The notes beneath the pieces were generated by a model that was not told where the DNA came from, searched no databases, and worked only from the letters and a program-made list of their open reading frames with translations. The position numbers and the translations under genes were made by a program. This document shows, piece after piece, positions 14,775 through 37,213 of a stretch of 64,000 bases of DNA (position 1 is the stretch's first letter; each line of letters begins with the position of its first letter). Source of the DNA: Oscillospiraceae bacterium. Its GTDB lineage: Bacteria > Bacillota > Clostridia > UBA1381 > UBA9506. Location of the stretch: the NCBI GenBank assembly GCA_015069045.1, contig SVJJ01000008.1, positions 1 through 64,000 on the forward strand, written 5' to 3'.

Positions 14775-16406
14775 CTATGCAATAGCGATAATTTGCTCAA
14801 TATCGGCTTTTTCAGCTGTCAAATAAGGCGTTTTAACTTCCTGGCCGGTAGCAATGTCCAGATAGAGTAATGTGCCATTTTTCAAGCTAATCTCGCCGCC
14901 TTCAATATTGTCTTGCGTTGCGAATAACTGCTTTACGGTTTTTGCATCTGCCATATTTGTAATTTGGCAAGCAACGCGCAGTGTATAACCATTTCCGTTT
15001 TCCCATAACAAGGAGGGATAGTATATAAATTCAACATTTGCACCAGAACGTTCCCAAACGATTTCTTTCAAGGATTGCAGAAATCCGATGAAAACGGAGC
15101 TATATTCTCTCGCAAAATTATAACTGTTTGTCGGCTTTTTAGTTTGTGTTAGGGGCGCTTTGCTATATACAATGTTTGGCATATTTTCAAGCATAACCTG
15201 AAAATCACCATATGGTATTTCGGTATATAACAAAGAATGGTTCTGTGCAACGGATTTACCGGTATATGGATTAATTTGTGTTGTAATATCAGATTGAGAA
15301 CCAATAAGATTGTCAAGCATTAAGCAAACAGCTGTAAACTCCCGTAGGGTAATGGGTGCTGATAAATCTTCTTTTAAAGTAATAATGCCCTTATCTTTAG
15401 CAAAGGTTAAGCAAATATTCATCATATCGGAAATTGAGTCGGGAAGACCATCTGTTTTGGAACCGTAAACCACACCATTTTTTGAAATAGAGATAAAGTG
15501 GTAGGTGAGTGTAGCTACTGTATCTCCAAAATTAGCAGCCTTATCTGCATATTCCAGGGTTAAATTTTTCTCCATTCCTAATCTATCACAAATAATGGAT
15601 AAATCACGAGCATAGGTATGTTCAAAATCGGCACGGTTACCAATTAAACCGGCATAAAGTAAATTTGTTTCTTCGCAACCAATACGAAGTGCAGCGCGTG
15701 CCATTTCGCCATTTGTTATAGTATCATTTGGGGCGTATAATTTTGTTGTTCCGTTTGCGTAAAACAGATTAAGACCATTATGCACATTTTCTAAAATTTT
15801 TGGACTAACAGCATTTGCAAATACGGTTTTATCTGGTTTCGGATTACGAGCACGAACAATTAAAACAGCAGCCTCAGCACGGCTGAGGGTATCATTAAAT
15901 CGAAGATTAATGCCATCGTCTCCTAACATTAAACCACTTTCGTATGCCCATGCAGCTGCTTGCGTATTGGCACTATATTGCGAAGTAATGATGGAAGGAG
16001 CATAAGCATCATTTGGCTGACCGTTGCGATTCCACAGAAGTTCAGCCACAAGACCACGGGTAATAGCAAGGTCGGGTTTAAACATGTTTGAGCCATCCTC
16101 CGGGAAACCGGACTTCATTATGTAGGTGTATGCCCAATGTGTTTCGGCAACATCACTATAATTTTCTTTGCGTAATTCTGAACCTGCTCCTAACATTTTA
16201 ACAAACTCAGCCCGTGTAACTGTGCCGTTGGGACGAAAAGTTCCGTCTACATATCCAGCTACAGTTCCATCTGCCACTAAAGTTTGCACATCTTTATATG
16301 CCCAGTGTCTTTCAGTTATGTCGCTGAAAGTTATAGCAGAAGCGGGCACTACAACGACGGATAACACGAGTATAACGGATAGAGCCATAACCAAAATTTT
16401 TCTCAT
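14775..16406 (-). CDS. Secreted SLH-domain surface protein
   Basis: A 543-residue exported protein. The ATG at 16406 is chosen because GGGGAGG lies just upstream and the signal peptide (MRKILVMALSVILVLS, cleaved near PASA) then starts correctly. N-terminal SLH repeats: FSDITERHWAYKDVQTLVA near residue 25, YSDVAETHWAYTYIM near 88, and a third repeat near 150-190. Degenerate SLH-like blocks recur near 210-260 and 350-370. The C-terminal about 150 residues match no domain I recognise. Likely an S-layer or wall-associated protein anchored at its N-terminus, the opposite arrangement to the SLH protein at 7.2 kb. Confidence 0.8.
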   Translation of the reverse strand: MRKILVMALSVILVLSVVVVPASAITFSDITERHWAYKDVQTLVADGTVAGYVDGTFRPNGTVTRAEFVKMLGAGSELRKENYSDVAETHWAYTYIMKSGFPEDGSNMFKPDLAITRGLVAELLWNRNGQPNDAYAPSIITSQYSANTQAAAWAYESGLMLGDDGINLRFNDTLSRAEAAVLIVRARNPKPDKTVFANAVSPKILENVHNGLNLFYANGTTKLYAPNDTITNGEMARAALRIGCEETNLLYAGLIGNRADFEHTYARDLSIICDRLGMEKNLTLEYADKAANFGDTVATLTYHFISISKNGVVYGSKTDGLPDSISDMMNICLTFAKDKGIITLKEDLSAPITLREFTAVCLMLDNLIGSQSDITTQINPYTGKSVAQNHSLLYTEIPYGDFQVMLENMPNIVYSKAPLTQTKKPTNSYNFAREYSSVFIGFLQSLKEIVWERSGANVEFIYYPSLLWENGNGYTLRVACQITNMADAKTVKQLFATQDNIEGGEISLKNGTLLYLDIATGQEVKTPYLTAEKADIEQIIAIA

Positions 16407-16446
16407 TTTTTTACATCCTCCCCGGTTATTTATTGTTAACATTTAT

Positions 16447-16475
16447 ATTGTAACATATTATTTATCATTATGCAA
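16447..16475 (-). promoter_or_regulatory. Promoter of the second SLH gene
   Basis: Minus strand TTGCAT, 17 bp, TACAAT. Confidence 0.6.
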
Positions 16476-16549
16476 GTGTACAAAAATAATTTGTAATTTA
16501 ATGTAATAGGTATTTAATGGAATAAAATTAACGAATTCTAAAAAAAGCC

Positions 16550-16578
16550 TTGACAAATTTAAAAAAAGTTGGTATACT
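16550..16578 (+). promoter_or_regulatory. Promoter of the tRNA-Ser pair
   Basis: TTGACA, 17 bp, TATACT, 20 bp before the first tRNA. Confidence 0.8.
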
Positions 16579-16598
16579 AACATATGTCGCTGGTAAAT

Positions 16599-16685
16599 GG
16601 AGAGGTGTCCGAGCGGTTTAAGGAGCTGGTCTTGAAAACCAGTGATGCGAGAGCACCGTGAGTTCGAATCTCACCCTCTCCGCCA
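16599..16685 (+). tRNA. tRNA-Ser (anticodon UGA)
   Basis: Acceptor stem GGAGAGG / CCTCTCC, anticodon loop CTTGAAA in a CTGGT/ACCAG stem, a long class-II variable arm, T-loop GTTCGAATC, and encoded CCA at 16683-16685. Decodes UCA and related Ser codons. Confidence 0.95.
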
Positions 16686-16723
16686 TCATTTTTCTTAATT
16701 TAATATGTATCATAATTCGACAC

Positions 16724-16815
16724 GGAGAAGTACTCAAGTTGGCCGAAGAGGCGCCCCTGCTAAGGGTGTAGGTCGGGAAACCGGCGCGAGAGTTCAAATC
16801 TCTCCTTCTCCGCCA
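16724..16815 (+). tRNA. tRNA-Ser (anticodon GCU)
   Basis: Acceptor stem GGAGAAG / CTTCTCC, anticodon loop CTGCTAA, long variable arm, T-loop GTTCAAATC, encoded CCA. Lies 38 bp after the first tRNA-Ser and is probably co-transcribed. Decodes AGC/AGU. Confidence 0.95.
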
Positions 16816-16817
16816 AA

Positions 16818-16860
16818 ATAGCGAATATTCACTTTAGTGAGTATTCGTTATTTTTTTGTA
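16818..16860 (+). terminator. Terminator after the tRNA pair
   Basis: Imperfect stem AATAGCGAATATTCAC / GTGAGTATTCGTTATT followed by seven Ts. Confidence 0.85.
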
Positions 16861-16861
16861 A

Positions 16862-16980
16862 AATCTGGATGATTTGAACTCGAGCGCCGAAGGTGCGATG
16901 CGCTAAGACTCTGTGAAGCCGAGGTTAAAGGGATGGCTGAACAGTAGTCGCAGCCATGGATAGCGGAGCAGTATACTTAC
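16862..16980 (-). other. GC-richer spacer with an inverted tRNA-Ser-like 3' fragment
   Basis: Read on the minus strand, 16870-16890 gives GGCGCTCGAGTTCAAATC, close to GGCGCGAGAGTTCAAATC of the neighbouring tRNA-Ser(GCU). No complete tRNA can be folded. The remainder has no ORF. Confidence 0.35.
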
Positions 16981-16991
16981 ATAAATATATA

Positions 16992-17027
16992 ATGCGGATT
17001 GACAGAATGTCAATCCGCATCTTTATC
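16992..17027 (+). terminator. Strong intergenic hairpin, possible terminator
   Basis: ATGCGGATTGAC / GTCAATCCGCAT with a 5-nt loop, followed by a T-rich stretch. Nearly symmetric, so it may act in either direction and end transcripts before the candidate RNA downstream. Confidence 0.65.
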
Positions 17028-17029
17028 TT

Positions 17030-17215
17030 TTGTAGCCCCGCCATGCCGTGTATAGGATTAATTTTTACCTGCCTAAGCAGGTGGGTATTCTCCCACACGT
17101 TTTATATGTCCCCTGGCCGATAAACGGGGGGCGTATATGCTGCGCATGGAGCCGAATTCCCTATTAATAAGTGTTGGTAAAATAAAAATCACTAATCACG
17201 CACATCGCAGGAAAA
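17030..17215 (+). ncRNA. Candidate structured non-coding RNA upstream of fructokinase
   Basis: A GC-richer block in AT-rich DNA that folds as a branched structure. CCATGC (17041-17046) pairs with GCATGG (17144-17149). CGTGT (17047-17051) pairs with ACACG (17095-17099), enclosing a CCTGC/GCAGG hairpin. TATATG (17103-17108) plus CCCC pairs with GGGG plus CGTATA (17132-17137). ATAGG (17052-17056) can also pair with CCTAT (17160-17164), crossing the outer helix as a pseudoknot would. Ends are uncertain. A clostridial RNA such as the raiA motif is one possibility; I cannot confirm the family. The separate fructokinase promoter downstream argues for an independent RNA rather than a riboswitch. Confidence 0.5.
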
Positions 17216-17299
17216 TTTTCTATTGTTATTATAACACTAAATGGAGAAAATATCAAGAGATATTTAAATATTTTTTGTTAAACTGTGTACGGTTTTGTC

Positions 17300-17328
17300 T
17301 TGAATTAATTTTATATATATGATACAAT
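17300..17328 (+). promoter_or_regulatory. Promoter of the fructokinase gene
   Basis: TTGAAT, 17 bp, TACAAT, 36 bp before the start. Confidence 0.65.
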
Positions 17329-17363
17329 ACATAAATAAAACGCATTAAGAAGCAAGGAGAAAA

Positions 17364-18311
17364 ATGATGAAATATAATGTAATTTCTATTGGTGAGGCCT
17401 TGATTGATTTTACTGATATTGGCACGTCAGAGAACGGAATGAAAATTTTTGAACAAAATCCCGGCGGTGCACCGGCAAATGTGGCATGTGCATGTGCCAA
17501 GCTGGGGCTTTCAACAGCCTTTATCGGTAAAGTAGGGCAGGATATGCATGGTAATTTTTTAATTGATACTTTGCAGAACTGTGGTGTTGATACAAGTTAT
17601 ATGGTACAAGATGAAACGGTCTTTACAACTTTGGCATTTGTTAAACTAAGTGAAAACGGCGACAGAAGCTTTTCCTTTGCCAGAAAAGGCAGTGCCGATG
17701 TTATGCTTCGCGAGGATGAGTTGAATTATGAAACCTTGCAAAATACAGAGATTTTACATTTTGGGTCCCTTTCTTTAACGGATGAGCCTTCAAAAACAGC
17801 GGTGCTTACAGCTGTGAAGAAAGCAAAAGAGGCAGGGGTTGTTATTTCTTATGATCCTAATTACAGGCCGCTTTTATGGAAATCGGAGCAACAAGCTGTT
17901 GAGGCAATGCGCTCTGTTTTGCACATAGTAGACATGATTAAGCTATCTGACAATGAAACAGAGCTTGTTTGCGGCACAAAAGATATTTACGAAGCGACAG
18001 ATGTACTTCACCAGCAGGGGATTCAACTGGTATTGTTAACCTGTGGTGGTGATGGCGCCCTTATTTCCTGTCCGGAAGGGAAAATCATGGTTCCGGCAGC
18101 GCCTGCTAATGTTGTAGATACAACTGGTGCCGGGGATTCCTTTTTAGGTGGTTTTTTATACAAACTTTGTACGGAAAATCAAGGCTTATGCAATATTACA
18201 AAAGAGCAGGCGCAGTCTTATGCCACATTTGCCAATCGTGTGGCGGGGTATTGCGTATCCGGCCGTGGTGCCATTCCTGCATTGCCCTATTTAAAGGATA
18301 TTACAGAATAA
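17364..18311 (+). CDS. PfkB-family carbohydrate kinase, probable fructokinase
   Basis: A 315-residue ribokinase-family sugar kinase, most like ScrK-type fructokinases, which make fructose-6-phosphate. N-terminal ISIGEALIDF, the substrate-binding NPGGAPANVACACAKLG segment near residue 32, SYDPNYRPLLW near 165, and the catalytic DTTGAGDSFLGGF near 252 with the base Asp. AAGGAG lies just upstream; the second ATG (17367) is an equally good start. It is monocistronic, with its own promoter and terminator; no sugar transporter or sucrose hydrolase is adjacent, so the true sugar is an inference. Confidence 0.85.
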   Translation: MMKYNVISIGEALIDFTDIGTSENGMKIFEQNPGGAPANVACACAKLGLSTAFIGKVGQDMHGNFLIDTLQNCGVDTSYMVQDETVFTTLAFVKLSENGDRSFSFARKGSADVMLREDELNYETLQNTEILHFGSLSLTDEPSKTAVLTAVKKAKEAGVVISYDPNYRPLLWKSEQQAVEAMRSVLHIVDMIKLSDNETELVCGTKDIYEATDVLHQQGIQLVLLTCGGDGALISCPEGKIMVPAAPANVVDTTGAGDSFLGGFLYKLCTENQGLCNITKEQAQSYATFANRVAGYCVSGRGAIPALPYLKDITE

Positions 18312-36516: not shown

Positions 36517-36545
36517 TTGACGAATTGTGGAATTTATGTTACAAT
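36517..36545 (+). promoter_or_regulatory. Promoter of the large non-coding RNA
   Basis: TTGACG, 17 bp, TACAAT with an upstream TG. Initiation is expected at about 36552, right at the 5' arm of the RNA's closing helix. Confidence 0.75.
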
Positions 36546-36554
36546 GAATGTCAT

Positions 36555-37187
36555 AAGAGTGGTGCAGTATCCTTAGTCAGATCTTCTCATTCCCAGGACG
36601 GGCCTAAAAATCCGTTGAAGGGCACATCGATGAAGTTTCTGGTGCTTGCTTTCGACGCCCAGTCGGGGGTTGGTGCTGGGAGTTAAGGCTTAGGGGCGGC
36701 TTGCAATGGCATGTGAGATTCGACCCCTTTGCCGTGGAGACCTGCTCTTGTGTTCCAAAGTGCGCCGGCAGGGCTTGCCTTGTGGACGCGGCGGGATACG
36801 AAGCAGGATTAAACCTGTCAGGCGGTGTGATTTTGCCTATGGTAAAGGAGCGCTGCGGACAGCGTAGCCTGCCTTGAGTGGTATTGGCGGATAGCGGATC
36901 AAACATAAGGCCTTCGGCCAAAGGCTTTGTGTTATTGCTGCTTGAAACTTCTATTGCAAAAGAGGCTAAGAATGAGCTTGACTGTTTGGGAAAACCTCTA
37001 GGCTGTTCCAAATGGAGATGCACTGAGGATTGCAGTGCGGACTTAAGTGGTGATTCGGTTCCGCGATGGGTAACCGCGCGGGTAGAGTATGAAAGGGAAA
37101 CCGCTGATTTGGCGACATTTCAGTTGCTCTACGGGAAAGCCTACCGGACCTAAACCGCAAAATTTACTCAGGGGCATTACCACTCTT
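36555..37187 (+). ncRNA. OLE-type large structured RNA
   Basis: About 633 nt with no plausible ORF, markedly more GC-rich than its surroundings. The two ends pair: AAGAGTGGT (36555-36563) with ACCACTCTT (37179-37187). Many internal hairpins are visible, for example GGCC-TTC-GGCC (36908-36918), GCACTG/CAGTGC (37018-37036) and a CGCG/CGCG stem near 37073. It has its own sigma-A promoter. Size (OLE is about 600-650 nt), the ispA-DUF212 context and presence in anaerobic Firmicutes all match OLE (ornate, large, extremophilic) RNA, a membrane-associated ribonucleoprotein linked to stress tolerance. The identification is by context and architecture, not by alignment. Confidence 0.8.
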
Positions 37188-37213
37188 TTACACTGTGTCA
37201 TTAAAATTAATTA

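Follow-up and report, generated by a model that had tools for sequence, protein, structure and literature searches.

6S RNAs, among them 6S-1 of Bacillus subtilis, are described in extracts of two papers (PMC8876501, PMC12005410) as mimics of an open promoter that bind the housekeeping holoenzyme. According to the same extracts, the polymerase then copies the 5' bubble strand into pRNAs of about 8-14 nt; this synthesis unwinds helix P2, and the 6S RNA is released. Among clostridia, the 6S RNA of Clostridium acetobutylicum (sCAC1377) has a conserved bubble and a short extra stem-loop and is strongly expressed on Northern blots, as reported in an extract of PMC3879012, and a predicted 6S RNA is listed for C. 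phytofermentans in an extract of PMC5171806.

The block analysed here lies in a window of 64,000 nucleotides, by which the whole stretch of DNA is meant. A covariance-model scan against Rfam gives a match to RF00013 (6S RNA, SsrS) at 17031-17216 on the minus strand with 88.1 bits and an E-value of 4.5e-16, where the gathering score is 46.4, and the match spans the complete model. A permissive scan of 16400-17400 returned the identical score; of its 17 matches with an E-value up to 10, only 6S and two tRNAs are above the cut-off of their own family. The raiA RNA has an Rfam model, and it is absent among these 17 matches. The original prediction had placed a structured non-coding RNA block at 17030-17215, which is borne out, and the Rfam scan that it proposed for raiA, 6S and others thus found 6S and not raiA. 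Its suggestion of an independent small RNA of a known class was right in that 6S was named in its checks, but the strand was wrong, and neither raiA as the preferred example nor the pseudoknot is supported. The genome itself (1.48 Mb, 26 contigs, 97.5% complete) has a single RF00013 match, and on this ground a second 6S copy is rejected. The features of the locus are as follows, where A1 is an alignment of 17 6S sequences from the same family and percentages are pair cells of its consensus fold.

17031-17216, minus strand: 6S RNA (SsrS) body, RF00013 model positions 1-187
17228-17256, minus strand: promoter TTGATA-17-TATAAT with TG before the -10 box (extended -10), 11 of 12 consensus positions
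16991-17021, minus strand: terminator-like hairpin directly 3' of the 6S RNA, 14 pairs, 3-nt loop and T-rich tail
17197-17212, minus strand: closing stem, 5' strand (partner 17036-17050), consensus fold
17036-17050, minus strand: closing stem, 3' strand (partner 17197-17212), helix 1, 98.3% paired
17179-17190, minus strand: helix P2, 5' strand (partner 17056-17065), consensus helices 2 and 3, 97.1% and 95.3% paired
17056-17065, minus strand: helix P2, 3' strand (partner 17179-17190), consensus fold
17173-17186, minus strand: likely template of a pRNA 14-mer on the 5' side of the bubble, with ACCAA in 53 of 53 sequences and the start placed by the GG spacing
17067-17082, minus strand: 3'-bubble hairpin, six pairs in 17 of 17 A1 sequences
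17083-17161, minus strand: apical arm, a long irregular stem-loop, helices 4-8, 95.4-100% paired
17364-18311, plus strand: ORF of 315 amino acids in the ORF list, named fructokinase in the original prediction and divergent from the 6S RNA

The block is almost certainly the single 6S RNA gene of this genome, encoded on the minus strand with its own housekeeping-type promoter and a hairpin terminator, and an open-promoter mimic by homology. This identity rests on the full-length family match, the promoter on the sense side, and a conserved rod whose bubble has invariant ACCAA on one side (5') and a hairpin on the other (3'). Genes of this class are independent units of about 160-200 nt, each under its own promoter; in keeping with this, the gene has a predicted promoter and a terminator-like hairpin of its own. 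The molecule is already known, an ordinary, textbook 6S RNA that is recognised by the standard family model.

Exactly one RF00013 match, always above the cut-off, is carried by 53 of the 61 genomes searched, the own genome included. It is missing in eight, five of which are among the 32 genomes of good quality, and the strict filters of this search lose weak matches. The A1 consensus has 56 pairs, with standard pairs in 97.8% of 946 cells, and forms a rod whose two helical arms are separated by a large central bubble. The original prediction proposed covariation in relatives as a check, and such changes are abundant: 18 of the 56 pairs have changes in both partners, and on each of five measures all 500 shuffles fall short of the observed value. 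Most covarying pairs are found in the apical arm, and the closing stem has two-sided changes in 3 of 14 pairs. When partners are slid in A1, pairing falls to 34-48%. The alignment of all 53 sequences (A2, 50 distinct) gives 36 pairs, of which 96.9% of the cells are paired and 17 pairs show two-sided change, again with none of 500 shuffles as good, and the hairpin on the 3' side of the bubble is unbroken in all 50 distinct sequences. The shuffles keep the relatedness of the sequences and the structures were derived from the same alignments that were tested; these concerns are answered in part by the slid partners and by the Rfam model, which is independent of the alignments.

Two of the helices originally predicted belong to this conserved fold, i.e. 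CCTGC/GCAGG (within 17067-17082) and TATATG-CCCC/GGGG-CGTATA (within 17104-17138). Two others, CCATGC/GCATGG (17041 with 17144) and CGTGT/ACACG (17047 with 17095), are outside it and reflect chance complementarity of arms that have other partners, since 17041-17050 pairs with 17197-17207 in the closing stem and 17144-17148 pairs with 17094-17098. The crossing ATAGG/CCTAT helix, which was the basis for a pseudoknot, has 54.1% of its cells paired compared with 50.8% in shuffles, and 63 of 500 shuffles are at least as high. By eye, similar-looking pairings at a shifted register can be seen in a few relatives. The pseudoknot is rejected because the named pairs are no better than shuffles and almost no collapse helix is predicted. 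The block was also said to be much richer in GC than its flanks. With 45.7% GC it is so relative to the downstream flank (21.6%) but not to the upstream flank (42.0%); the window has 39.5% GC, and 13.8% of sampled 186-nt blocks from it are as GC-rich.

Transcription would be expected to start at about 17221. Of the 53 6S loci, 52 were compared for a strict promoter pattern (TTG-17-TGn--10 within 70 nt upstream of the RNA start), one being omitted for its short flank. The pattern is found on the sense side in 44 of them and on the antisense side in none. A looser scan with a score of at least 9 gives 39 of 53 on the sense side and 7 of 53 on the antisense side; with a score of at least 10 the counts are 20 and 2, and shuffled sense flanks would give 3.2 by chance. 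The terminator-like hairpin scores on the plus strand too, as 16992-17020, and may terminate in both directions.

One alternative is that the plus strand, the one folded originally, encodes an RNA of another class such as raiA or of a new class, possibly with a pseudoknot. In its favour, dinucleotide shuffles of the plus strand fold less well than the strand itself (z -2.57). The minus strand is at z -2.73, so single-sequence folding does not tell the strand. The alignments do. The sense-strand pair cells of A1 consist of 823 Watson-Crick, 102 G-U, 4 A-C and 17 other combinations, and in the opposite reading the 102 G-U cells turn into mismatches. The consensus fold has an energy of -60.67 in the sense reading and of -40.2 in the antisense reading. 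The minus strand is fixed by this excess of G-U over A-C together with the one-sided distribution of the promoter. A plus-strand RNA is rejected on the G-U pairs, the side of the promoter and the family match on the minus strand, with the absence of raiA among the matches with an E-value up to 10 and the lack of conservation of the crossing helix also against it, and it is given hardly any probability.

Even less probable is that the block serves the putative fructokinase gene as a riboswitch or other 5' leader, which its position upstream of the ORF might suggest. The 6S RNA is divergent from that gene, and a fructokinase homologue adjoins 6S in none of the 52 loci of relatives, looked for in flanks of about 1.5 kb of which some are cut by contig ends; on these two grounds the leader is rejected. 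A tRNA-Ser gene was likewise found beside 6S in none of these 52 loci within the same, partly cut flanks, and the neighbourhood is therefore particular to the own genome. The separate promoter predicted for fructokinase is compatible with the divergent anatomy of a minus-strand 6S RNA. On the plus strand, promoter-like sites lie at 17295 and 17300, both weak with 9 of 12 consensus positions.

Directly behind the tRNA-Ser(GCT) gene, the stretch 16823-16902 (plus strand) contains a hairpin followed by TTTGAACTCGAGCGCCG. Three relatives (G006, G014 and G018) have it after their tRNA-Ser(GCT) gene as well, which with the own genome makes 4 of 31, and Rfam scans gave no hit to it above the cut-off. 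A part is similar (76%) to the 3' end of tRNA-Ser in reverse complement. Elsewhere in the window, a full-length OLE RNA (RF01071) was found at 36543-37199 on the plus strand with 498.3 bits, adjoined by ORFs of 153 and 315 amino acids. OLE is by name a large RNA of extremophiles; here it is in an apparent gut clostridium, and it was matched in 37 of the 61 genomes of the relatives search. The host is taken as a gut-type clostridial MAG because a scan with its GAPDH had its best match, at 95% identity, in an uncultured Clostridia MAG from water buffalo colon (RGIG7507); a fructokinase scan gave no match.

ACCAA has the same place on the 5' side of the bubble in all 53 sequences, and the pRNA would therefore read (GU)GUUGGUAAAA, the plus-strand sequence. 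A start at G17173 would be favoured by the resulting GG at position 4/5, which is where the pRNAs of E. coli and A. aeolicus have GG in an extract of PMC8414754. The alternative start, G17171, has a conserved upstream A in 42 of 53 sequences, but GG then falls at 6/7, so that the exact start is uncertain by about 2 nt. By analogy with its homologues, the RNA would mimic an open promoter and occupy the housekeeping RNA polymerase holoenzyme as growth slows. On outgrowth the polymerase would use the bubble as template for a short pRNA, about GUUGGUAAAA..., and this synthesis would unwind helix P2 and release the 6S RNA.

In nearly all 53 sequences, GGU of the predicted pRNA is directly followed by an A tract (17171-17190, plus sense). 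The four positions after GGU are A in 51, 53, 53 and 49 of the 53 sequences, and the uninterrupted tract has 3 to 8 A across the order, with 8 A in many members of one family. An extract of PMC12005410 suggests that homonucleotide stretches determine how long the pRNA is when its synthesis pauses and the 6S RNA comes off, and an A tract after GGU would fit that suggestion. It is conceivable, if rather unlikely, that the tract sets the pause length and the release here, and might even allow slippage; the RNA would still be an ordinary 6S RNA.

The analysis correctly annotates, with name, strand, promoter and terminator, a regulator of global transcription in the genome of an uncultured clostridium. 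What might have been followed up as a new RNA class was a false lead, and the order-wide alignment yields a clean pRNA prediction.

Constrained folding with only the 14 template bases blocked predicted almost none of the collapse helix of B. subtilis 6S-1: a mean of 0.08 expected pairs, compared with 0.14 when the distal bubble was shuffled, and real above shuffled in 18 of 53 sequences, while part of P2 stayed closed in the model. The RNA resembles B. subtilis 6S-1 (BsrA) in its bubbled rod and the hairpin on the 3' side of the bubble, and RF00013 is matched in full length here. The predicted pRNA is similar too: its template is on the 5' side of the bubble, and it has a G start, GG and then a run of A. 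The pRNA of B. subtilis 6S-1 is GUUCGGUCAAAACU in an extract of PMC8876501, with GG at 5/6, whereas the predicted GUUGGUAAAAUAAA has GG at 4/5. The own genome has one 6S copy, whereas B. subtilis has two 6S RNAs according to an extract of PMC8414754. C. acetobutylicum sCAC1377 is a clostridial 6S RNA that is alike in its bubble and short extra stem-loop, as far as the extract describes it.
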